A DNA stretch of 51,191 nucleotides, taken from the IMG/VR virus record IMGVR_UViG_3300033153_012783, positions 1-51,191 of that record; one strand, written 5' to 3'. How positions within the stretch are numbered: position 1 is the first letter of the stretch; each line of letters opens with the position of its first letter. Below the pieces are notes generated by a model. The model worked only from the letters and a program-made list of their open reading frames with translations. It was not told the origin of the DNA and searched no databases. The translations under genes were made by a program, and so were the position numbers. This DNA comes from a virus. Below are positions 892 to 51,191 of the stretch, piece after piece.

Positions 892-2486
892 TGGCGGAAC
901 GCTCAGATATAACGGTGGACTGGGGCATCTCTCCGCGTCTTGCGGAGGTTGCCCTACCATCCACTGAGCTCGCGACGCAAGATGCGCACGATACATTCAA
1001 TTCCAACACCCTTCAGCCTGGAATGGCCGATGCCTCATTGGAAAACATTGATGATGAACCAATTATCGCCTCTGCTGGCAAAGAGGACCTGGGAGGCGGA
1101 ACATCAGTTGGCATCACGGCCACTTTGCTTGATATGCAGATTGCGTTTGAACGTACTGCATCAAGATCATCCGGAGCGGTAACCACAGCAGATTCTGCTG
1201 GTGAGTTACTTATCGATAATTTGGCTGATTTCGTCACTGAAGGCGTGCAGCGTGGTGACTGGGTTATTAATTTTACCGATCAGTCAGTTTGCGAAGTTTT
1301 ATCTGTTGTCGATCTAAATACACTGAGAACCAGGGCTCTATCTGACGGCACTGATAATCAATTCGATATTGCTGATGTTTATAAAGTCTGGGAAGTATCT
1401 GAATGCAACCTGGTTGGCGGTAACTATGTGGCCGAAGATGATGCAGGCGACCCAATCAACCCACTTTTTACCACTTTTGGGCGCTTTGCAACGCGAACAT
1501 CTTCCTCTTCAGCCACATCAACCTCACAGGCACTTTTGGAGCACGGAACCTTCAATGGCGGTATTTATTGGGACGCTATTGGTGGGAAAAGCTCAATAAT
1601 CGAGGATACTGATGGCAATGAGGCAGAGCCGTTATTAAATCTCGATGATGTATTAACCCAGGCGGTTGATAAAGGATTCTCAAAGATATATGTGGTGTCA
1701 ACCACAGCCACGGTTGCGAGTACAGACGTAATCGATGGTTATCAGCTTTATGGTGAGGGCCCAACTCAAACACTGATAACTTTCGAGGCCGGCTGTTCTA
1801 CCGTTAAAACAACAATCAATGATGCTGAGATCGAAGGGGATGTCGAAGGGGCGCTCGAAGTCACTAATTGCCACATATCGCCTTTTACCGATGTCGGCAG
1901 CGCTGTGACAGAGACGGTGTTCAAGGATTGCGTCCTAAAACCAGATGCTACCAACACGATCAAGCTGGCCACGACTGCTACACAAACCATACATATCATT
2001 AATGCCAGGAGTGGTTCACCTGGTGATACTCCGATCACTATCGACGCGAATGGTGCATCGGCGGGTATAAGAATGAGTGGTTATGACGGTGGCGTATTGT
2101 TTAAAAACATTACAAACCCTCTACAAGACATATCGATAGGTACGACGGGTGGCCATGTCGCACTAGATCCTACCTGTACTGACGTTGGATCATTTGTTTA
2201 CCGTGGCGATACCAAGATGACAAACCTCTCGACGATCGTGCCGATAGATCAATCATCGTCAGCGTTAGTATGGGAGCAAGATAGTGGGTCGTTCCTTGTT
2301 AAGATCGTTAAAAACCTGAAAGAAATAATAAAGATATCGGGCGTTTGGTATTTGATCATCTATGATGATGGGGAGGTATCGGGCGGCACGGAAATATTGA
2401 GGAAAGCGCTAAAAGATTCTACAGGGGCAAATATCACTGACCTTGCAGCAGGCACATTGGCAGCGGAGCTAGAAAGTAGTGTTTAA
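891..2486 (+). CDS. Virion structural protein, probable beta-helical C-terminal part
   Basis: The start ATG overlaps the previous stop (TAATG), indicating translational coupling. Residues 1-80 contain a pattern I associate with conserved phage structural proteins (DWGISPRLAEVALPSTE, then GKEDLGGGTSVGIT and LLDMQIAFE). The middle, about 240-460, resembles a right-handed beta-helix: short strands with recurring Asn/Gly/Cys turns. No catalytic motif is evident, and the last 60 residues return to a globular composition. It is the third large protein in a row between terminase and portal, so it may act with the two upstream fibrous proteins in one appendage. It could instead be a head decoration protein. 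Confidence 0.65.
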   Translation: MAERSDITVDWGISPRLAEVALPSTELATQDAHDTFNSNTLQPGMADASLENIDDEPIIASAGKEDLGGGTSVGITATLLDMQIAFERTASRSSGAVTTADSAGELLIDNLADFVTEGVQRGDWVINFTDQSVCEVLSVVDLNTLRTRALSDGTDNQFDIADVYKVWEVSECNLVGGNYVAEDDAGDPINPLFTTFGRFATRTSSSSATSTSQALLEHGTFNGGIYWDAIGGKSSIIEDTDGNEAEPLLNLDDVLTQAVDKGFSKIYVVSTTATVASTDVIDGYQLYGEGPTQTLITFEAGCSTVKTTINDAEIEGDVEGALEVTNCHISPFTDVGSAVTETVFKDCVLKPDATNTIKLATTATQTIHIINARSGSPGDTPITIDANGASAGIRMSGYDGGVLFKNITNPLQDISIGTTGGHVALDPTCTDVGSFVYRGDTKMTNLSTIVPIDQSSSALVWEQDSGSFLVKIVKNLKEIIKISGVWYLIIYDDGEVSGGTEILRKALKDSTGANITDLAAGTLAAELESSV

Positions 2487-2637
2487 TATTCAGCCAGGTC
2501 AAGGATTAGGGTTCACTGCCAGCAAGCAAATAGCATTAGGGCTTGGGACGACTACCTTTATAGAAAAGATCATATTGAGAGTGGTTCAGTTTGGATTGCA
2601 CATAACCAAATGCGTGAGGTTTACCGTTGAATATTGA
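2479..2637 (+). CDS. Small phage protein, 52 aa, GTG start
   Basis: A GTG start overlaps the end of the previous gene by 8 bases and the frame runs to TGA at 2635. The N-terminus FNIQPGQGLGFTASKQIALG followed by LG is a pattern I recognise from short proteins near the structural modules of other phages, which is the main reason for calling it. There is no membrane segment and no known function. The start codon and the overlap imply coupled translation. It is too short for statistical confidence. Confidence 0.55.
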   Translation: MFNIQPGQGLGFTASKQIALGLGTTTFIEKIILRVVQFGLHITKCVRFTVEY

Positions 2638-2785
2638 AACATTGTTTTTTCAGGTTATGATAACCAGAGAGATTGTTGGCAATGTAATTGTGAATCAAGC
2701 GATAACTGAGCAAATATCATTGACTCAATTAATAGCAGAGACTGTATCTGTCACACAAGAATTAAATAGTGAGGTCAGAATATGA
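2627..2785 (+). CDS. Small hydrophilic protein, 52 aa, TTG start (or ATG at 2657)
   Basis: This frame overlaps the end of the 52-aa gene before it and the start of the gene after it (ATGA-type overlap at 2782), fitting the tightly coupled array. The product ends in a Gln/Thr/Val-rich helical stretch (ITEQISLTQLIAETVSVTQE). The TTG start is inferred; ATG at 2657 would give 42 residues. I recognise no family. The overlap geometry on both sides is the main support. Confidence 0.4.
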   Translation: MNIETLFFQVMITREIVGNVIVNQAITEQISLTQLIAETVSVTQELNSEVRI

Positions 2786-3087
2786 GTGATATCTTTAAGG
2801 CCCAGACGCTCAAACTTGAATTCACTATTGTTGTCCAAGATGGTGCTGTCGTAGATTTATCAGCTGTTACCTCCTATGATTTGGAATTTAGAAAGCCTGA
2901 TGGCACTTGTGTTACCAAAACACCAAGCTTTGTGTCAGATGGTACGGATGGGAAAATACAATACACAACATTAACCACGGATCTTGATCAGGCAGGCTCC
3001 TGGTCAGTTCAATCCATTGTTATTGATGGGGCTAATGATTATCCGACAGAAACAGTGAGTTTTGTGGTCCAAGACCGTCTTTGCTAA
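2782..3087 (+). CDS. Small beta-sandwich-like virion or assembly protein
   Basis: The 101-residue product starts at ATG after GAGGTCAGAAT. Its pattern of alternating beta strands (TLKLEFTIVV, YDLEFRKPDG, GSWSVQSIVI, ETVSFVVQD) resembles the Ig-like, BppU-N-like proteins of about 100 residues often found near phage portal genes. No catalytic residues are seen. It lies directly upstream of the portal. A structural or accessory role in the head-neck region is inferred from shape and context only. Confidence 0.6.
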   Translation: MSDIFKAQTLKLEFTIVVQDGAVVDLSAVTSYDLEFRKPDGTCVTKTPSFVSDGTDGKIQYTTLTTDLDQAGSWSVQSIVIDGANDYPTETVSFVVQDRLC

Positions 3088-3104: not shown

Positions 3105-4412
3105 ATGGCAAAATTCAAATTACAATGGCCTATTAAGTTAGGCGGCCATCGCACCGAGAAAAAAGCAGCACTAGGTACCAGTGATGCGCTCGGTAAATTC
3201 ATGATGTTTGGTGTGACGGGTGCTGAAACGCCATCATCGGCATTAAATCTTTATAAAGCATCCTCCGCTGTCAGCAATCCAGTCAATAGAGTAGCCGAGT
3301 CTTTTGCCAGCCTGGATCCTGTCATTGAAGAAAATGGCAAAATAATCAAAGATCATCCGGTATTGGAATTATTGAGAAACCCATCACCATACTACGATGA
3401 TGTACTTTTCCTTGAAACACTCGCCAAACATTACCTGGTAACCAATGAATCCGAGATTGTGGCCATCGGTAATATCAATCGACCACCACTGGAACTGCAG
3501 CCCATCAGCCCCGCCAATGTCTCCATCGTTGAGGGTCACAATGGTCTGGCGCAATCAATGGATATTTCGGGTAATACGTTGTCTGGCCAGTATATTCTTG
3601 AACTAAAAAGAAATAATGCCCGTTATTTATCAGGAAGCCTAAGAGAACTCAAACAAATCAGGGGATTTTCAGCCAATGGAAATTCGTTATTGCGCGGTCA
3701 GTCGTTGTTGGTACCAGCTGCAAAGGAAGCCAGGCAGCACATTCTCGGCAATGATCATAATGTCAGCTTGCTGGAAAAAGGTGGCCGGTTAAGCGCCGTA
3801 TTCCATTTCGATCAAGATTTGAATGATGATGATTTTAATGAAACCCGTGACCGGGTACGTGATCAATACGGTGGCGCCAGTAAAGCCGGTGAAATTGGAG
3901 TGACGGCCGGCGGCAAGATGAAAATCAACGAAATGGGCGTCAATAATAAGGATATGGATTATGTGAAGCTGCATGCTATGGCACAACAGGCGGTCGCTAT
4001 GCAGTACAAGGTTCCGTTGCCACTGATCACGATAGTTGCAGCCACATTCAATAATTACAAAGAGGCCAAACTGGCTCTGTACGATGATGCTGTATTGCCA
4101 CTGGCTGATCGCATATTTGGTGGACTGACATCGTTCCTGATGCCAAGGTATGGCCTTGATCCATCAAAGGTTCGCATTACTTACGATATCGATACGATTA
4201 CCGCCCTGGCTGTGCGCCGGAATGAAGAATTGAAGCTGAGAAAAGAACTGGGTGTCGAATCTGATAATGAATTGCGCACACTGATTGGCCGTGAGCCATA
4301 CGAAGGCGGCAATGTAATTCATAAACCAGCTAATTTGATTCCGGTTGGAAGCGATACCGATACCGACGATCTGGAGCCGGTAATTATTCGAAACCAGAAT
4401 GATGATGAATGA
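3105..4412 (+). CDS. Portal protein, HK97 family
   Basis: The 435-residue protein forms the dodecameric portal through which DNA enters and leaves the capsid. Family hallmarks are the N-terminal segment with SNPVNRVAESFASLDPV, HPVLELLRNPSPY, the central SLLVPAAKEARQHILGNDH region, and the C-terminal YKVPLPLITIVAATFNNYKEA helix pair typical of HK97-type portals. ATG at 3105 is preferred over TTG at 3081 because AGGAT lies about 7 bases upstream and the TTG would lie inside the previous gene. It is followed by minor head, protease and capsid genes in the usual order. Confidence 0.9.
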   Translation: MAKFKLQWPIKLGGHRTEKKAALGTSDALGKFMMFGVTGAETPSSALNLYKASSAVSNPVNRVAESFASLDPVIEENGKIIKDHPVLELLRNPSPYYDDVLFLETLAKHYLVTNESEIVAIGNINRPPLELQPISPANVSIVEGHNGLAQSMDISGNTLSGQYILELKRNNARYLSGSLRELKQIRGFSANGNSLLRGQSLLVPAAKEARQHILGNDHNVSLLEKGGRLSAVFHFDQDLNDDDFNETRDRVRDQYGGASKAGEIGVTAGGKMKINEMGVNNKDMDYVKLHAMAQQAVAMQYKVPLPLITIVAATFNNYKEAKLALYDDAVLPLADRIFGGLTSFLMPRYGLDPSKVRITYDIDTITALAVRRNEELKLRKELGVESDNELRTLIGREPYEGGNVIHKPANLIPVGSDTDTDDLEPVIIRNQNDDE

Positions 4413-5780: not shown

Positions 5781-7072
5781 CCCACTATCACGAAATGCCT
5801 GATGGAAGTAAAACAGGCAACTCCATCATTGACGAAGAAAACCCATCCAAGCATTATCATATGCTCAACGGTGTTAAATCATCAATCGAAGATAATAGTG
5901 ATACCCATACTCACACCATCGATGGCCAATTAACTGGTAAAATGATTGAAACAGACGATTCCCATAAGAGGACTGATCCAATGAATTTAGAAACCAAGCG
6001 GCTTGGCGGTGTTTTAATCAGCGTTAAAGAAACAGAACGTGCCGGGGTCAAAATTGGCATCGTCGAAGGTTATATCGCCACCTGGGATATCGATCGCGGT
6101 GACTGGATGGGCGTTAAAGACCAATTTGTTAAAGGCTGCTTCCGTGAATCCATCGCTGATCATCTAAAGCGTGGCCGACAGGTACGATTCAAAGATCATC
6201 ATGGCCGCACTATTGGTGGTTTCCCGATTGATACCGTCAGAGAAGATGATCGAGGCCTATTCGGTATCGCTGAAATTAATCTTGATGTGCAGCAAGGGCG
6301 CGAAGCCTATGCCCTAGCACTGCAGGGTGTATTGGTTGAATTCTCGATCGGTTTCTCTGTTGATGAATTCAGCATGGACGATGAACTGAGGGTTATCACC
6401 AAAGCAACCATATGGGAGGGCTCAATTGTTGATGAGCCAATGAATCCGGCTGCTGTCGTTACCTCTGTGAAATCCGTTGTGCCTTATCAGGACCTGCCAT
6501 TAGCCGATAAAAACCGTTCATGGAATGCCAGTGCCGCCATTGAAAGAGTGAAAGAATTCACCGACTCAGATGAGGCGCCAACCATTAACTATAAAAGCTC
6601 ATTTCTTCAGTATGACAAAGACCATGATGAGACATTTTCCGCCTATAAATTGCCCATTGCTGATGTAATCGATGGAAAATTACGCGCGGTCCCAAATGGT
6701 ATATTCGCAGCCGCCGAATCAATCAAAAGCGGTAATATGGATATACCGGAAGCTGATCGCCCTGGCGTCATTCGTCATATTGAGAAATATTATGCAAAAA
6801 TGGATTTGCCATCACCTTTTGAGGAAGATGATAAGCAGTATTTTATTGCCGACGATGTTGAGAAGATGGATGTTCGAACACTTGAAAAAGCTCTGCGAAA
6901 GACAGGATGTTTCAGCAAATCCGCTGGAAAAATGTTGGCCAAGAGATTGGCGGCTTCACCAAATGTTGACGATGAAGATGATTTGAACAATACTCAGCCT
7001 GAAAGCAAAACTTTTAAAGAAATTATTGATGATCTTAATGGCATAACGAAGTCATTAGCACCATCAGAATAA
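5777..7072 (+). CDS. Prohead maturation protease, HK97/U35 family, with His-rich N-terminus
   Basis: The 431-residue protein cleaves capsid and scaffold segments during head maturation. The protease domain spans about residues 78-235; the presumed catalytic His is in KDHHGRTIGG (141/142) and the Ser in EFSIGF (190). The C-terminal part, about 275-345, with AYKLPIADVIDGKLRAVP and IRHIEKYYAKMDL, is a segment seen with other phage proteases and may be scaffold-like. Residues 1-55 carry three His clusters (HYH, HYH, HTHT) spaced by DG turns, suggesting a metal-binding extension. An internal ATG at 5982 could give a shorter form without it. Confidence 0.88.
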   Translation: MTHYHEMPDGSKTGNSIIDEENPSKHYHMLNGVKSSIEDNSDTHTHTIDGQLTGKMIETDDSHKRTDPMNLETKRLGGVLISVKETERAGVKIGIVEGYIATWDIDRGDWMGVKDQFVKGCFRESIADHLKRGRQVRFKDHHGRTIGGFPIDTVREDDRGLFGIAEINLDVQQGREAYALALQGVLVEFSIGFSVDEFSMDDELRVITKATIWEGSIVDEPMNPAAVVTSVKSVVPYQDLPLADKNRSWNASAAIERVKEFTDSDEAPTINYKSSFLQYDKDHDETFSAYKLPIADVIDGKLRAVPNGIFAAAESIKSGNMDIPEADRPGVIRHIEKYYAKMDLPSPFEEDDKQYFIADDVEKMDVRTLEKALRKTGCFSKSAGKMLAKRLAASPNVDDEDDLNNTQPESKTFKEIIDDLNGITKSLAPSE

Positions 7073-7173
7073 TCCCCCCAGAGTGACGCGAGGTCATTTC
7101 TGTTGCTACGGCGAGAGGCCGATAGCGGTTTATTCCAACATAATCCGTTAACCTTTAAACAGGAGCAATAGTG

Positions 7174-25458: not shown

Positions 25459-26010
25459 ATGACCACAATTAAAGATAAAATCATTAGTGGAATCATCCGT
25501 GTTGAAGGTGGATATTCTAATGATTTATCCGATTCAGGTGGTGAAACAAATTACGGCATCACTGAAGCCGTAGCACGTTCATTTGGTTACACAGGTTCAA
25601 TGCGTGATATGCCTCGTGAGATCGCTTTTGATATTTATTCTGCGATGTATTGGGATTCGGTTTATGCAGATGGATTGTCTGAACTATCTGAACCTATTAC
25701 TGATGAAGTGGTTGATACTGCTGTCAACATGGGACCAGGCAGAGCCGGTGAATTTTTGCAGCGCTCATTGAATGTGCTCAATAATCTTGGAAGTCTTTAT
25801 CCAGATATCGTGGTTGATAATGCCATTGGGAAAGCTACGGCATCAGCCTTGAAACAATTTCTGTTTTATCGAGGAAAGGAAGGTGAGGAAACACTCGCTA
25901 AAATGCTGAATAGTTTGCAGGGTGCATTTTATGTCGAACTGGCGGAACGCCGGGAAAAAGACGAAAAATTTATTTATGGTTGGTTCAAAAATAGAGTCAA
26001 ATTGCCTTAG
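25459..26010 (+). CDS. Endolysin, GH108 N-acetylmuramidase
   Basis: The 183-residue protein cleaves peptidoglycan. The N-terminal IIRVEGGYSNDL with Glu16 in the E-GGYS motif, SGGETNYGITEAVARS, and MYWDSVYADGL followed by ELSEPITDEVVDTAVNMGPG are the GH108 hallmarks. The C-terminal half fits the predicted peptidoglycan-binding domain (LQRSLNVLNNLG; AFYVELAERREKDEKFIYGW). No signal peptide is visible, so it depends on a holin. It opens the lysis cassette. Confidence 0.92.
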   Translation: MTTIKDKIISGIIRVEGGYSNDLSDSGGETNYGITEAVARSFGYTGSMRDMPREIAFDIYSAMYWDSVYADGLSELSEPITDEVVDTAVNMGPGRAGEFLQRSLNVLNNLGSLYPDIVVDNAIGKATASALKQFLFYRGKEGEETLAKMLNSLQGAFYVELAERREKDEKFIYGWFKNRVKLP

Positions 26011-27287: not shown

Positions 27288-27614
27288 ATGGGAAAGAAAT
27301 TAATTTTATTGTTGATATGCCTTTCTCCTGGGTTCCTGTTTGCGAGTGAACCGCACCATACAACTGTGGTTATCACCGATACAGCTAAAACCACAAAGAT
27401 GCAGGGAACGGCCTTAAGCCTCGCTGCTGCTTCTCATACGTTTGACTGGGGCACCAAGGATTTGCAGGGCTCTGTTGGACTGGGTGGGTATAGTGGTGAG
27501 AATGCTCTATCTTTTGGCATTGGTAAGCGTTACGGGAGAACCCTTCTAAATGGCTCTCTGGGCGTGTCAGATGGTGAAACAGGGTACTCAGCTGCCGTTA
27601 ATTGGCATTTCTGA
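27288..27614 (+). CDS. Secreted mini YadA-anchor-like outer-membrane protein in lysis cassette
   Basis: The 108-residue product has a clear signal peptide (KKLILLLICLSPGFLFA, cleavage near residue 20). A mature part of about 88 residues follows. Its helix plus four-strand pattern (GTALSLAAASHTFDWG; LQGSVGLGGYSGENALSFG; LLNGSLGVSDGETGYSAAV, ending NWHF) closely resembles the membrane anchor of trimeric autotransporters, including the C-terminal aromatic residue needed for barrel assembly. No passenger domain is present. In this position it could disturb the outer membrane at lysis, replace an o-spanin, or modify the surface against superinfection. Confidence 0.72.
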   Translation: MGKKLILLLICLSPGFLFASEPHHTTVVITDTAKTTKMQGTALSLAAASHTFDWGTKDLQGSVGLGGYSGENALSFGIGKRYGRTLLNGSLGVSDGETGYSAAVNWHF

Positions 27615-27862
27615 TGGCACATGATCTGCACGACTGGCTGAAATTACTGCTTGAATATTTGAAGGGAAGCAAGGCTATTATTGCTGTCTGGATTCTGTTC
27701 TTCGGTACTGGAGCTTATACGGTGATTGATCTTATCCCCGAGAACGATCCCAGTGAACCTGAGATAACGGCTCCGGTAGTCCTTACCCCGCCAGCTACTA
27801 AGCAAGACCCTGTCGCTCTCTGCCGAAAGCTCCTTAGCGATCACATCATTGATCTGCACTGA
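27614..27862 (+). CDS. Small single-span membrane protein at end of lysis operon
   Basis: The 82-residue product starts at ATG overlapping the previous stop. It has an amphipathic N-terminus (HDLHDWLKLLLEYLKGS), a membrane span at about 22-42 (AIIAVWILFFGTGAYTVI), and a Pro-rich exported tail with one Cys. The shape could suit an inner-membrane spanin or antiholin. A minus-strand open frame overlaps all but its first 30 bases, so one of the two may be spurious. Coupling to the upstream gene favours this one. Confidence 0.55.
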   Translation: MAHDLHDWLKLLLEYLKGSKAIIAVWILFFGTGAYTVIDLIPENDPSEPEITAPVVLTPPATKQDPVALCRKLLSDHIIDLH

Positions 27863-28021
27863 TTCCATATCGCTGTATTTAGATTCCAGGAGAGACATTA
27901 ATAATTCTTTCTCCATATCCGGTATATCTGGGCATTGCATTTTATGCTCATAACTCCCTACAGAGATCGAGCCAGCAAGTAATAAGGCTGTGAGTTCTAT
28001 CGGGGTCGGCATTGCATACAT
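27644..28021 (-). CDS. Doubtful exported protein, antisense to lysis-operon end
   Basis: From ATG at 28021 (or 28012) the frame gives about 125 residues. The N-terminus is signal-like (PTPIELTALLLAGSISVGS), and a polar remainder includes DMEKELLMSLLESKYSDMES. It overlaps the 3' end of the upstream minus-strand membrane gene by 25 bases and runs antisense to the last lysis gene. I recognise no family. The N-terminal half (27863-28021) is the more credible part because nothing competes there. Confidence 0.3.
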   Translation of the reverse strand: MYAMPTPIELTALLLAGSISVGSYEHKMQCPDIPDMEKELLMSLLESKYSDMESVQINDVIAKELSAESDRVLLSSWRGKDYRSRYLRFTGIVLGDKINHRISSSTEEQNPDSNNSLASLQIFKQ

Positions 28022-28146
28022 TCTGGCATCGTTATACATCCAGAAGTTAAGACCAAAATTGCAATAAAGATGGATACAATAATGATAAATTTCACAATAT
28101 CCCAAAGCGTCATTTCTTCATATTCTTCATCGGTTATTAACGGCAT
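27997..28146 (-). CDS. Tiny membrane protein with lipobox-like end, 49 aa
   Basis: An acidic N-terminus (LITDEEYEEMTLWDIVKF) leads into one strongly hydrophobic span (IIIVSIFIAILVLTSGC) ending in a lipobox-like LTSGC and a short Cys-containing tail. The ATG lies one base after the stop of the upstream zinc-ribbon gene, behind AGGAAG. Acidic residues before the span are unusual for a lipoprotein signal, so it may simply be a single-span membrane protein. Membrane or exclusion functions are possible but unproven. Confidence 0.5.
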   Translation of the reverse strand: MPLITDEEYEEMTLWDIVKFIIIVSIFIAILVLTSGCITMPECMQCRPR

Positions 28147-46660: not shown

Positions 46661-48874
46661 ATGGCTATTACCTACTCAGCCGGTGCCGGTACTGCAATCA
46701 CCTCGTTTCTGGTGACTCAGGTCCTGGGCGATCAATCCCAGCAAACAGGAAACAATACTATTGTCCTTGATGACATTCCGTCTGCGGCCACTGGATACGG
46801 CGGCAATGTAGGCGATGGCACGCTTGGAATTGGGGATTCTTACGATACTCGTCGGATAATGATTGGCCGTGGTGGCACGATTCAAGAGCGGATTGTCATC
46901 AATGATGCCGCAGGCACGGGCAATACCAGAATATTAACCGTCCATGAGGATTGGGATACAAACCCTGTCCAGACTACCGATACCGTTGATGTTTATTATG
47001 AGATCGCAGATGTTGAAGATGGCGGTGCAGGCGGCGGTATTTCATTTGCTACCCGTACTGGTTTATGGACTCTGACCCGTATTATCACCATTGGTAACGG
47101 CACTGATCCAGCCGGACTTGGAATGCATGGCGGCCAGGCGCTCGAGTGTGCTGATCGTGGTGCTGCAGATTCATTCCTGGTCAAAAATAACGGGTTTTTC
47201 CGTTTTGGCTATTATTCTGGAGGCCTGCCGATCTCCGGTGGAATTATCACGTTAACGGCTGCTACTGATGATGAGCCGGCGCAGAGTTTCGAATCAGGTG
47301 CCGATTCCGCATTTCTTGATACCTTAATCTGGGCGCAGGTCGCTACTCTTAGCCAAATCAGCAATACAGGCGCGGTTGTCTTATATGACAAAACCAAGCT
47401 ATTGAAGGCCACAGAGGAATGTGAATTATACGGCGATGCGGTCACTGATCTGAGTGTCTCAGGCCTCGGCGCAACTACTGAAATTGTCAGAGTAGATTCA
47501 GCAACCGTATGCCTGGCTTTAGTATTGGTTGACGTACAGGTCTTGGATTCCGTGGCCGATACCACAACCGAAACGATAGAGCTGACCGGCGTAGTATTTT
47601 CTGGTGTGCCTGGCTATGTCGATGTTCGCCAGAATAAAACGTGGGATCTGATTGATCCGGTATGGGATGTCACTACCTATACGGAGCTGACTTGGACGGG
47701 AACCAGTACAGGCAACGAGCTCAACGATAAGCGAAGTATTACCGCTGTGGTGCAGGAGGCTGATGGCACAAAATTGCAAGATGCTCTGGTTAATATTTAT
47801 GAAAATACCCAACTTGCCGATCTTGTTCAGGAGCTCGTAACAGATTCAAACGGTCTTGCCACAGGCTCATTTATATACAAAAAACATGCCACAAATTCAG
47901 TAACAACGACCTATGGTGGTCATGCGCTGCAGTCAGGAAAATGGTTATATCTTCCGTTTGTATCAGCGCAGGTATCAACAGAAAATTTTAATGGATCAAT
48001 TGTCTTATCTGACGATACAAATATTGTCCAAACAACTCAGGCAACAGCTATTTCTGACGGTTCAACCATTACCTGGAATGAAGATACTAATCCAAGCTCA
48101 ATTGTCGTATTTTCCGCAGGCACAGGCACGCTGTCGGTCGGAGACACGATAACGGGCGGAACCTCTAGCGCGACAGGCATTGTTACGCAGATTTTAGATG
48201 GTGATTCGGTGGCAGGAACTGTTCACATGAAGACGAGAAATGCGAATGCATTCACTGCCGGTGGCGAATCTTTGAGTAATGGTGCAGGCTGGACGGCAAC
48301 GATGACCGCGGCATCTGAACAAAGATTTAGTATATGGGCTGATGCCGTTACAAAAAGCTTCCAGACAGTCTACGATTACTGGGCTGCTAGAATGACAGAA
48401 ACAACGCTACTTTCTGCAGGAGAATTAATATGGGAATGGTGTCGATCTGCGCAATCCCAGCCGCTTTATAACACTGGAGCAAGTTTTTTCACTGAAAGAT
48501 CAAATGCAAAAGGTATTATTATTGTAAATGGTGGCGCTGGAGCAATTGATTATTTTACTGATGATGCCGGTGGAACATATACCCCACCAGATACGGTAAC
48601 ATTAACGATACAGGTAGATGATTCAGGTGGTAATGCGGTTGTTGGTGCAAGATGTAGAATTGAAAAAACATCTGATGGCAGTCTTATTTCAAACGGATCA
48701 ACGGATGGTTCTGGCGCATATACCGATTCTTATGTCTACACTACTGATGTAGCTGTTAATATTAAAGTGAGACTCAAAGGATATAAGCCATTCAGAACAA
48801 CTGGAACAATTTCTTCGGCAGGACTTACAGTTGGTGTAACATTCCAAAATGACAATATAGTGGACTTACCATAG
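46661..48874 (+). CDS. Large fibrous virion protein, 737 aa
   Basis: The protein is Gly/Thr/Asp/Ala-rich and beta-rich throughout. Residues 1-120 contain LVTQVLGDQSQQTGNNTIVL and GRGGTIQERIVINDAAG. The middle, about 120-320, looks like a beta-solenoid. KRSITAVVQEADGTKLQDAL and TLTIQVDDSGGNAVVGARCR are carboxypeptidase-regulatory/Ig-like units. A GDTITGGTSSATGIV unit resembles the repeats of the next gene. The C-terminal 38 residues (RLKGYKPFRTTGTISSAG to NIVDLP) match the end of the 1027-residue neighbour. It may form a head fibre or collar structure with it. Confidence 0.7.
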   Translation: MAITYSAGAGTAITSFLVTQVLGDQSQQTGNNTIVLDDIPSAATGYGGNVGDGTLGIGDSYDTRRIMIGRGGTIQERIVINDAAGTGNTRILTVHEDWDTNPVQTTDTVDVYYEIADVEDGGAGGGISFATRTGLWTLTRIITIGNGTDPAGLGMHGGQALECADRGAADSFLVKNNGFFRFGYYSGGLPISGGIITLTAATDDEPAQSFESGADSAFLDTLIWAQVATLSQISNTGAVVLYDKTKLLKATEECELYGDAVTDLSVSGLGATTEIVRVDSATVCLALVLVDVQVLDSVADTTTETIELTGVVFSGVPGYVDVRQNKTWDLIDPVWDVTTYTELTWTGTSTGNELNDKRSITAVVQEADGTKLQDALVNIYENTQLADLVQELVTDSNGLATGSFIYKKHATNSVTTTYGGHALQSGKWLYLPFVSAQVSTENFNGSIVLSDDTNIVQTTQATAISDGSTITWNEDTNPSSIVVFSAGTGTLSVGDTITGGTSSATGIVTQILDGDSVAGTVHMKTRNANAFTAGGESLSNGAGWTATMTAASEQRFSIWADAVTKSFQTVYDYWAARMTETTLLSAGELIWEWCRSAQSQPLYNTGASFFTERSNAKGIIIVNGGAGAIDYFTDDAGGTYTPPDTVTLTIQVDDSGGNAVVGARCRIEKTSDGSLISNGSTDGSGAYTDSYVYTTDVAVNIKVRLKGYKPFRTTGTISSAGLTVGVTFQNDNIVDLP

Positions 48875-48884
48875 GAGCTAAAAA

Positions 48885-51191
48885 ATGAGCATCAGCGATG
48901 ATTGGGACTTAGATTATGCCAATACAATACTGAGCCATATCGATGGTGTATTGAGTTATGACACAGGCGGCGGTCGTCAGCCTGCCGTTGGCGAATATAT
49001 TATCGGCAATACTTCCGGCGCTGTGGGTAAAATCCTCGCTGTCACTGGAAATACAACATCTGGCACGATGACGCTGACCGATACGGTGGGCTTCTTTGAA
49101 GATAACGAAACATTCGAGATTTTATCATTTGTCGGATTTGATAATGTCACCACACAGGGTAATGGTTTTTCGTTAGGGACTACCGTCACTGATTCTGTAA
49201 CTGGATCCATTGATGTAAAGGCCATTGAGTACAATGATGATGGTTTGGGGACAGGTACTCTATTTGGAACTAATTTCACCGCATTCGCGGACAGCTTGGT
49301 ACTGAAAGAGACCGGAGGATCGACCGATATTGCTGATTCTGTTGGCACCGGTACCGACAACGATGCAGAATTAACGACAACGCAAACCGATGGTACTTTG
49401 GCTGTTCCTGGTACTGCACAAACAAATGATTCGGTGATTATCCATTACGATGCAGGCACTGTGGCTATCCCAGAGCAAGCATTACTAGAGGATGCCACTA
49501 CGGGTGCGATCGGCTTGGTAGAGCAGGTTAGTGGCGTAGCGGCAACTGGGTCAGTGAGACTTGTTGATTACGATTCAACTGGTGGTGTGTTCACTGATAA
49601 TAATACGCTGAGAGTGGATCAGGTTATTGCTTATAATAACCAGGTTGCCGGTCAAGTATTCTCGGTTGGTGATGTGGTGGTGGGCGGTACTTCCGGTGCC
49701 ACTGGCCGCGTGCTGGCTGATACCGGTACAGAGCTTATTTTGGCGGACGAATCCGGCACATGGACCACAACTGAAGATTTAGAGGTCGGCGGTACCAAGA
49801 TTGCCGAGGCCAACGGAACCAATACCACGCTGAATGTGGCTACTTGTGATATTCCAAGCGGTATCCGTACTGAACAACGCCCCAATTCAATCGGCGGCGG
49901 CTCTCAGCAAGGCGGTATTTATGCTGCTGCAACCGGGCTTAATATTGTTCGTAAATTCAACAGTCTATACACCTATAACCAAGATACTTTCGATGAGCTT
50001 GATCAGTTGGATGATGACGAAGCAATGGAGGCCTTTGGTAAGGGTACATCTTATGCTCTGACCTTCGGATGGAGAGTTCCAGACCTTTCATTCCGGTTCG
50101 TGAGACAGGCAGGTGTTGTGGATACTACGGGCGCCAACGTCTGGGCTAATCCTCAGACGGTGGGTGCACAAAATAAAATCACCGATACCGCTTTTGATTA
50201 CACATCGGCACAACCCTATCGTCAGCCTCAATTATATATTGAAAAAGATGGCGTGAAGGTCGACCCTTGGTGGTTAGAGGGTCAAATTGATGTGCTCATT
50301 AAGACCAAAACGCGCACCGATACAAACTATATCGATCCTGCGACTCCAGGCCTGGGACAGTTGATTCCAGGTGGCGATCCGGCTGTCAATGGTTCCTATA
50401 CGGTATTAAATCGTGAATTTCATGTCTCTACCTATGACGCCACACAATCACCAGCCGCGGCAGCAGGCGTTAATACTATCGCTCTTGGTACGGGCGCTGA
50501 TGTAGCCAGTGATCGCAACCCTAACGGCACGCATACCATGGATTACACGGGCGGCTCTGGCGCTACGTTGATCGTTGGTGAAGAATTCACCGCTGGTATC
50601 GGTAATGGTTTGAAGGTGGGTATTGTGGTATCCGATACAGGTGGCGCAGGGGCTACTGGCACACTTGAATATGTGCTGAAAACTGGCACTAATTTCGTTA
50701 ATACAGACTCATGTACTGCTGAAATATCAGGCAAGACATTTACCTCACCAACTCCAACTAATGTCGTGGCTGGTTTTGGTACAGATATTCGCTTTAGCGT
50801 TATTGATCTGGCGGCCACACCTTCTGGCGGTACGGGCATCACTGGCACCTTCATTCCCGGCGAACCTGTCACTCAGGCGGTAACTGGTGCCACAGGCTTT
50901 GTTGTTCTCGCTAATACCACTACCGATCTGCTTTATATTGAGGTTAATACTGGAACATTCTCAGGCGATAACGATATTACCGGCGATGTATCAGCAGCTT
51001 CCTGGGATGCAGGTACAGGTGCAACCTATCCATCGGCTACCGAGTTTAACGGTGATCTGAACAATGGTGATGGCGCACAGCCTTACGCAGGTTCTGTATC
51101 GGGTGATATCGCCGGTACGGGCGCTGAGACCATGCAGAATATCTACCAATATTCGAAATATGCTGCCGCCCAGGAACAGGCTACGATCTCC
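48885..51191 (+). CDS. Large fibrous virion protein, N-terminal part (continues at base 1)
   Basis: Start ATG follows AGGAGCTAAAA. The frame is open to the window end and continues in frame at 1-891 (total 1027 residues). At least four copies of a unit with consensus G-x-TSGATG-x-V then a Thr-rich strand are visible: GNTSGAVGKILAV, EDATTGAIGLVEQV, GGTSGATGRVLAD, QAVTGATGFVVLA. A central stretch (SIGGGSQQGGIYAAATGLNI; GWRVPDLSFRFVRQAG) looks globular. Repeats of this sort build long shafts or coat surfaces in phages; the exact role is unknown. Confidence 0.75.
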   Translation, partial: MSISDDWDLDYANTILSHIDGVLSYDTGGGRQPAVGEYIIGNTSGAVGKILAVTGNTTSGTMTLTDTVGFFEDNETFEILSFVGFDNVTTQGNGFSLGTTVTDSVTGSIDVKAIEYNDDGLGTGTLFGTNFTAFADSLVLKETGGSTDIADSVGTGTDNDAELTTTQTDGTLAVPGTAQTNDSVIIHYDAGTVAIPEQALLEDATTGAIGLVEQVSGVAATGSVRLVDYDSTGGVFTDNNTLRVDQVIAYNNQVAGQVFSVGDVVVGGTSGATGRVLADTGTELILADESGTWTTTEDLEVGGTKIAEANGTNTTLNVATCDIPSGIRTEQRPNSIGGGSQQGGIYAAATGLNIVRKFNSLYTYNQDTFDELDQLDDDEAMEAFGKGTSYALTFGWRVPDLSFRFVRQAGVVDTTGANVWANPQTVGAQNKITDTAFDYTSAQPYRQPQLYIEKDGVKVDPWWLEGQIDVLIKTKTRTDTNYIDPATPGLGQLIPGGDPAVNGSYTVLNREFHVSTYDATQSPAAAAGVNTIALGTGADVASDRNPNGTHTMDYTGGSGATLIVGEEFTAGIGNGLKVGIVVSDTGGAGATGTLEYVLKTGTNFVNTDSCTAEISGKTFTSPTPTNVVAGFGTDIRFSVIDLAATPSGGTGITGTFIPGEPVTQAVTGATGFVVLANTTTDLLYIEVNTGTFSGDNDITGDVSAASWDAGTGATYPSATEFNGDLNNGDGAQPYAGSVSGDIAGTGAETMQNIYQYSKYAAAQEQATIS
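51078..51191. repeat. Assembly overlap, right copy (identical to 1-114)
   Basis: This is the redundant end of the circular assembly; see the left copy. The genes at the two edges are one gene. Confidence 0.95.

Follow-up and report, generated by a model that had tools for sequence, protein, structure and literature searches.

A passenger-less YadA-type anchor gene overlapping a one-TM protein gene in viral lysis cassettes: a candidate spanin-like pair

The window, by which we mean the whole stretch of 51,191 nucleotides of the IMG/VR virus record IMGVR_UViG_3300033153_012783, contains a lysis cassette in which a GH108 endolysin gene is followed by the genes for a 128-aa transmembrane (TM) protein, a holin-like protein, a coil protein, and two overlapping genes, after which genes on the opposite strand begin (Table 1). 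The products of the two overlapping genes are referred to as the OM and IM proteins, according to the membrane, outer or inner, in which they are predicted to reside. The initial annotation had located the OM gene in the lysis cassette, after the holin gene. This was borne out, since it lies at the end of the cassette, after the endolysin and holin-like genes. The region 46661-51191 of the window, which follows the terminase large subunit gene, encodes a 737-aa protein without a PHROG match and then, over ~2.3 kb, is free of any long closed plus-strand frame in the list of open reading frames (ORFs).

Table 1. Features of the lysis cassette in the window and position of the OM/IM pairs in three further viral contigs
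Feature	Positions	Strand	Description
Endolysin	25459..26010	+	Glyco_hydro_108 (PF05838, E 3.2e-22) and PG_binding_3; phrog_315 endolysin, E 3e-42
128-aa protein, C-terminal TM segment	26020..26406	+	Flanked by the endolysin and holin-like genes; no match to any family
Holin-like membrane protein, 190 aa	26408..26980	+	phrog_1544 (unknown function), E 8.5e-7; holin PHROG at 0.019 only
Coil protein, 100 aa, N-terminal TM and charged helix	26984..27286	+	Possible i-spanin of the initial annotation; relatives in L003, L004, L017
OM half	27288..27614	+	Predicted signal peptide and passenger-less YadA-type anchor, 108 aa, C-terminal Phe
IM half	27614..27862	+	82 aa, one predicted TM segment (23-41), basic residues ahead, acidic Pro-rich tail behind
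L002 pair	OM 3604-3945, IM 3945-4250		Reached by OM protein
L004 pair	OM 6373-6795, IM 6795-7157		Reached by holin-like protein
L016 pair	OM 2042-2458, IM 2458-2823		Reached by holin-like protein

The OM gene starts with ATG, and its translation ends in AAVNWHF. The protein consists of a signal-peptide-like start, which by sight resembles a Sec signal peptide, a stretch of ~40 residues that separates the expected cleavage site from the anchor match, and a YadA anchor that extends up to the last residue, Phe. The Pfam family YadA_anchor (PF03895) matched residues 60-108 with positions 10-60 of its 60-position profile (E 7.5e-8), and the score of 32.8 bits is above the curated cutoff of 22.7; no further domain was found above cutoff, and a surface passenger (head, long stalk) is absent. 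An AlphaFold2 model of the single chain, calculated from a four-sequence alignment, comprises a helix (41-48) and four strands (60-68, 71-82, 85-96, and 99-107), with block means of pLDDT of 70-82 across residues 41-100 and of 62 across 101-108 (overall, 63.7). The top five fold matches to this model were all trimeric autotransporter anchors, namely, Hia 3emo (Z 8.5, 69 residues, 2.1 A), Hia 2gr8 (Z 8.2), AtaA 9vnj (7.5), Hia 2gr7 (7.2), and YadA 2lme (6.9); the first unrelated match was at Z 5.8, a modest margin to the lowest-scoring anchor. Foldseek retrieved 3emo at E 5.4e-3 and nothing below 0.001. A sequence search of the PDB reached YadA at E 0.12 with the window OM protein and at E 1 with profile A6, in the latter case below an unrelated signal-peptide match, and an NCBIfam search with the OM proteins gave no match. 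The earlier proposals of a YadA-type anchor with a C-terminal Phe, of a missing passenger, and of a beta-barrel segment in the predicted structure are thus upheld by the Pfam score above cutoff, by the lack of head and long stalk, and by a single-chain model of a helix and four strands whose best matches are trimeric autotransporter anchors, respectively.

As a size control, the PF03895 model was run on 369 gammaproteobacterial genomes. Sixteen of them yielded a total of 33 YadA_anchor matches, and the open frames that hold these matches range from 293 aa, the shortest, up to 4043 aa. By comparison, the open frames of the OM genes measure 118 aa in the window and 143 aa in the viral contig L016. 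The passenger-less form is unlike the chromosomal adhesins of this control.

The ATG of the IM gene and the stop codon of the OM gene, TGA, have one base in common, the last of the TGA; the TTG at 27602 is merely the mechanical start of the ORF. Hydropathy analysis of the IM proteins of the window and of the three contigs described below gave a single TM segment in all four, with Lys or Arg directly ahead and a tail of 41-75 aa behind, the window tail being short at 41 aa. The topology expected from these sequences is N-in, C-out. One-nucleotide overlaps are frequent in the window phage, where they were seen in 7 of the 33 neighboring gene pairs listed, the OM/IM pair among them; such an overlap says little in one phage and means more in four diverged ones. 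A 153-aa ORF on the minus strand (27644-28105) overlaps most of the IM gene, and codon-position G+C does not discriminate between the two strands as the coding one. The relatives of the plus-strand product lend support to the IM gene over this minus-strand ORF.

The lysis loci of related phages were searched for a similar pair, and OM and IM units were found in three further, diverged viral contigs, L002, L004, and L016 (Table 1). The one-base overlap of the OM stop codon and the IM ATG is present at all four loci. The OM proteins of the three contigs are 19-38% identical to that of the window. In leave-one-out tests, the OM protein left out was retrieved by the profile of the other three at E 5.5e-9 to 1.2e-11 or, once the signal peptides had been removed, at E 1.6e-8 to 5.9e-4; the best match among 200 shuffles reached 0.2 to 2. 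Judged by these sequence comparisons, the four OM proteins form one family. The predicted mature proteins start with SEPHH, DSSHH, ENPHN, and EHPHV and thus hold a His in every case; together with this His-containing mature start, the four diverged copies have retained the signal-peptide-like N terminus, the anchor, Phe as the last residue, and the overlapping partner gene. With PF03895, the L016 protein scored 19.9 bits, under the cutoff, and the L002 and L004 proteins gave no Pfam match. The model of the L004 protein has the same layout as that of the window, with a helix at 66-82 and four strands, and its best fold matches were Hia (Z 9.2 and 9.0) and AtaA (8.8), with low confidence; because its mean pLDDT of 46 is poor, even the match at Z 9.2 is weak support. 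The IM proteins resemble each other weakly (window-L004, E 1e-6; L002-L004, 2.6e-4; L016-L004, 0.12, not significant), and leave-one-out profiles missed L002 (E 14) and found the window (0.034) and L016 (0.37) weakly. Kinship thus appears less certain for the IM than for the OM proteins, and layout, order, and overlap provide the stronger argument.

Several searches bear on the distribution of the pair. (i) A rule-based search of 95 sequences for a short secreted protein with an aromatic last residue and a one-TM gene close behind returned the four pairs and no other. (ii) In the viral_contigs set, the window OM protein reached a single locus, L002, and the OM profile gave no match, its patterns having fallen within the signal peptide; the coil protein gave no match by single sequence and three by profile. 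(iii) No further OM/IM pair was present among the 25 loci listed by a portal scan, the 3 loci of an endolysin scan, or the 3 loci of a genome scan with the holin-like profile, nor in 8 of the 9 phage records with holin-like relatives (all except VP16C). (iv) In bacterial genomes, the OM profile matched 0 of 3 and 1 of 369 genomes and then, at E <= 0.01, 10 of 398 and 8 of 390 in overlapping draws. Only two of the matches, L087 and L080, were in frames shorter than 200 aa; L087 was rejected as a short anchor, being a repeat-rich secreted protein without the look of an anchor. No prophage copy of the pair with a known host was found in the genome draws searched with the OM profile.

At three of the four loci (window, L004, and L016), the pair lies behind an endolysin gene and the same holin-like gene. 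The order in L016 is endolysin (66% identical to that of the window), 100-aa TM protein, holin-like protein, OM, and IM; in L004, it is a different endolysin (phrog_465), TM protein, holin-like protein, basic 92-aa protein, OM, IM, coil protein, and portal. In L002, a portal or adaptor gene and the gene for an 88-aa protein precede OM and IM, structural genes follow, and no lysis genes, endolysin included, were seen in the ORF list of the contig, the end of which is ~3.6 kb upstream of the OM gene.

The initial annotation had reported no classical o-spanin nearby on the plus strand, in agreement with our lipobox scripts, which detected no plausible lipoprotein in the window. A 49-aa ORF on the minus strand (27997-28146), convergent with the lysis cassette, has a hydrophobic stretch, an LTSGC lipobox that the script rule misses, and a 13-aa mature part; it is a candidate rival outer-membrane component, though too short for a usual o-spanin. 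A credible lipoprotein gene was not detected in the window (51 kb), L002 (28 kb), L004 (25 kb), and L016 (13.5 kb); the scripts listed eight ORFs of 35-76 aa in these four contigs, at least six of which are inside or largely overlap larger genes. This absence is weak evidence, because the pair-bearing contigs apart from the window are fragments and because L003 and L017, fragments of 8.9 and 6.6 kb with related cassettes and no pair, likewise show no lipoprotein of note. In L049, related by its endolysin (64%), the cassette ends in a gene for a 160-aa lipoprotein (1597-2079, plus strand; LSAC) instead of the pair; this protein matched an Rz-like spanin PHROG weakly (E 1.9e-4, signal region included).

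A YadA anchor had been called unexpected in a phage. This does not hold, since yadA homologues are in print (PMC3728262) and in PHROGs 8062, 17426, and 26246. They were reported in 2013 in phiEco32, FSL SP-058, FSL SP-076, and others, and those of the Salmonella phages FSL SP-058 and FSL SP-076 are described as not close to tail genes (PMC3728262). When 50,697 phage records were searched by tblastn with a chromosomal YadA anchor, 77 were matched at E up to 10, including records titled as Salmonella. In the 16 of these records that were examined, the YadA proteins have 140-721 aa, and their genes are located away from annotated lysis genes and have small genes as neighbors. None of the 13 records in which the next gene was translated had a TM protein gene starting within 10 bases of the YadA stop codon; in three of the 13, the next gene overlaps the YadA gene by 11 to 26 bases, and the products of these three are an annotated dUTPase and two non-TM proteins. 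The window OM protein resembles the phage homologues (phiEco32 gp119, FSL SP-076, and the three PHROGs) in its signal-peptide-like start and C-terminal YadA anchor but differs from the 16 examined in being shorter, in being encoded in a lysis cassette, and in having a coupled partner. It matched phrog_8062 at E 0.01 and over residues 55-108 only, versus 2.1e-51 for the 140-aa protein of Salmonella phage vB_SnwM_CGG4-1, and a profile comparison of A6 with the latter protein was poor (probability 6). In the phage collection, tblastn with the window OM protein gave 12 records, all Eib-type adhesins or the like (best E 1e-3), and the OM proteins of L002, L004, and L016 and the coil protein gave no match. 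Judged by search listings, the open-licence PMC literature yielded no description of such a pair of a mini YadA anchor and a one-TM protein. A YadA anchor in a phage is therefore already known, and the mini-anchor with its coupled partner is new beside a known, uncharacterized group.

Three members of this group were inspected individually. The 140-aa protein of the T4-like phage vB_SnwM_CGG4-1 (L072, 2318-2740) is a secreted YadA-anchor protein encoded among small genes near tRNAs. In phiEco32 (L057, 3048-4228), the YadA homologue has a collagen-like passenger, and a cell wall hydrolase (PF07486, E 1.7e-7) is encoded 110 bases further on; the two are annotated as a tail protein and a hypothetical protein, respectively. 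In Erwinia phage RF1 (L067, 1691-3286), the YadA-anchor gene is followed by two genes: one encodes a TM protein of 81 aa, and the product of the other, of 83 aa, combines an LVGC lipobox with a TM segment at its C terminus, which is the layout of a unimolecular spanin. The RF1 locus is a second hint that YadA proteins may occur close to lysis genes.

The pair shares features with three known systems. (i) Like YadA and Hia anchors (PF03895; 2lme, 2gr8, and 3emo), the OM protein has the anchor sequence, the predicted helix and four strands, and the terminal aromatic residue; unlike them, it has neither stalk nor head, at 108 aa versus chromosomal open frames in the hundreds to thousands. (ii) With two-component spanins such as lambda Rz/Rz1, it has in common adjacent overlapping genes, a single-TM IM protein combined with an OM protein, and location in a lysis cassette. 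The differences from Rz/Rz1 are that the OM half is a predicted beta-barrel segment and not a lipoprotein, that the OM gene comes first, that the Pro-rich part belongs to the IM protein, and that cysteines are few or absent. None of the four OM proteins has a lipobox at its start; their cysteines are C11 in the window and C9 in L016 (within the signal stretch) and C68 and C81 in L002, with none in L004. A periplasmic cysteine for a disulfide link is usual in spanins, ~4% being without one (PMC6139136); besides the two of the L002 OM protein, the pairs hold C70 in the window IM protein; the L004 pair and the mature L016 pair have no such cysteine. (iii) In AtaA-TpgA (9vnj), a partner binds the anchor of a trimeric autotransporter adhesin (TAA) on the periplasmic side (PMC13082670), and the phage pair likewise would combine a TAA anchor with its own partner on that side. 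TpgA, however, is soluble and peptidoglycan binding, whereas the phage IM proteins contain a TM segment and lack a Pfam domain of that type.

We tentatively propose, with somewhat less than even confidence, that the OM and IM genes form a two-gene unit that acts like a two-component spanin, joining both membranes at the end of infection. That it constitutes a third kind of spanin, composed of a trimeric beta-barrel o-spanin derived from a YadA anchor and a short Pro-rich i-spanin, is put forward with still more reserve. Because a defining feature, the lipoprotein OM subunit, is lacking, the pair is not classified as a two-component spanin. In the proposed mechanism, the OM protein would be exported by Sec, folded by BAM, and form a trimer in the outer membrane, each subunit contributing four strands to a 12-strand barrel of the YadA and Hia type. 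A single TM helix would hold the IM protein, N-in, with the Pro-rich tail in the periplasm, where the tail may bind the periplasmic face of the barrel or its N-terminal segment. After murein cleavage by the endolysin, the linked complexes would gather and collapse, and the outer membrane would be broken or fused with the inner one. By an estimate not derived from a structure, the inner tail of 41-75 aa and the residues ahead of the anchor could, if extended, span the periplasm. In this scheme, the signal peptide and the topology are read from sequence, and we infer the trimer, the contact between the OM and IM proteins, the timing, and the effect on lysis. The earlier idea of a new route through the outer membrane is plausible and is strengthened by the overlapping partner gene at all four loci; its functional part stays conjectural.

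Four other readings were weighed against this spanin-like one. The OM protein may be a late surface barrel that blocks receptors, either for superinfection exclusion or to keep virions off debris, with the IM protein as a helper in export or stability. A surface role is plausible, since lytic phages have other YadA-anchor proteins away from lysis genes, and TAAs can have helper proteins, TpgA being an example (PMC13082670). We nevertheless consider this reading unlikely: the window OM protein exposes almost nothing, the location of its gene at the end of the cassette predicts late expression, and a conserved TM partner is left unexplained.

It is distinctly unlikely that the OM protein weakens the outer membrane alone, as a pore that is poorly plugged for want of a long helical stalk, and that the IM protein acts apart from it, as a holin-like or antiholin-like protein. 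The shortness of the predicted pore helix in the window and the small size, single TM segment, and holin-like neighbor of the IM protein fit this reading, but the helix predicted for L004 is longer (at low confidence), pairing with a one-base overlap at all four loci indicates a joint task, and a pore alone does not achieve virion release.

The initial annotation had regarded the coil protein as a possible i-spanin, so that it and the OM protein would be the i- and o-spanin and the downstream gene incidental. The coil gene is directly upstream of the OM gene, its product has the usual i-spanin layout of an N-terminal TM segment and a charged helix, and L002 encodes a 94-aa protein with a TM segment and a helix, possibly analogous, ~3 kb ahead of its OM gene. 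However, the L016 pair has no such protein adjoining, L003 and L017 encode the coil protein but neither an OM protein nor the pair, and in L004 the coil gene is located after the IM gene. The fixed partner is therefore the downstream IM gene and not the coil gene, which makes this reading improbable. That the OM protein is a decayed trimeric adhesin, a functionless remnant of one of the longer phage TAAs after loss of its passenger, is hardly credible given the features kept in four diverged copies, which are unlike those of a remnant.

If the spanin-like reading is correct, the pair would bear on a gap in the spanin literature. In the main survey, 91 of 677 phages were without a recognizable spanin, and an outer-membrane protein acting as o-spanin was named there as an untested possibility (Kongari et al. 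2018, PMC6139136). The OM/IM pair, with genes of ~330 and 250 bp, is a concrete candidate for that idea. It would mean that a YadA-type anchor has been turned from display to membrane disruption, would supply annotators with a signature for seemingly spaninless phages, namely, a mini YadA anchor and an overlapping one-TM gene, and would be one way in which phages that lack a lipoprotein spanin disrupt the outer membrane.
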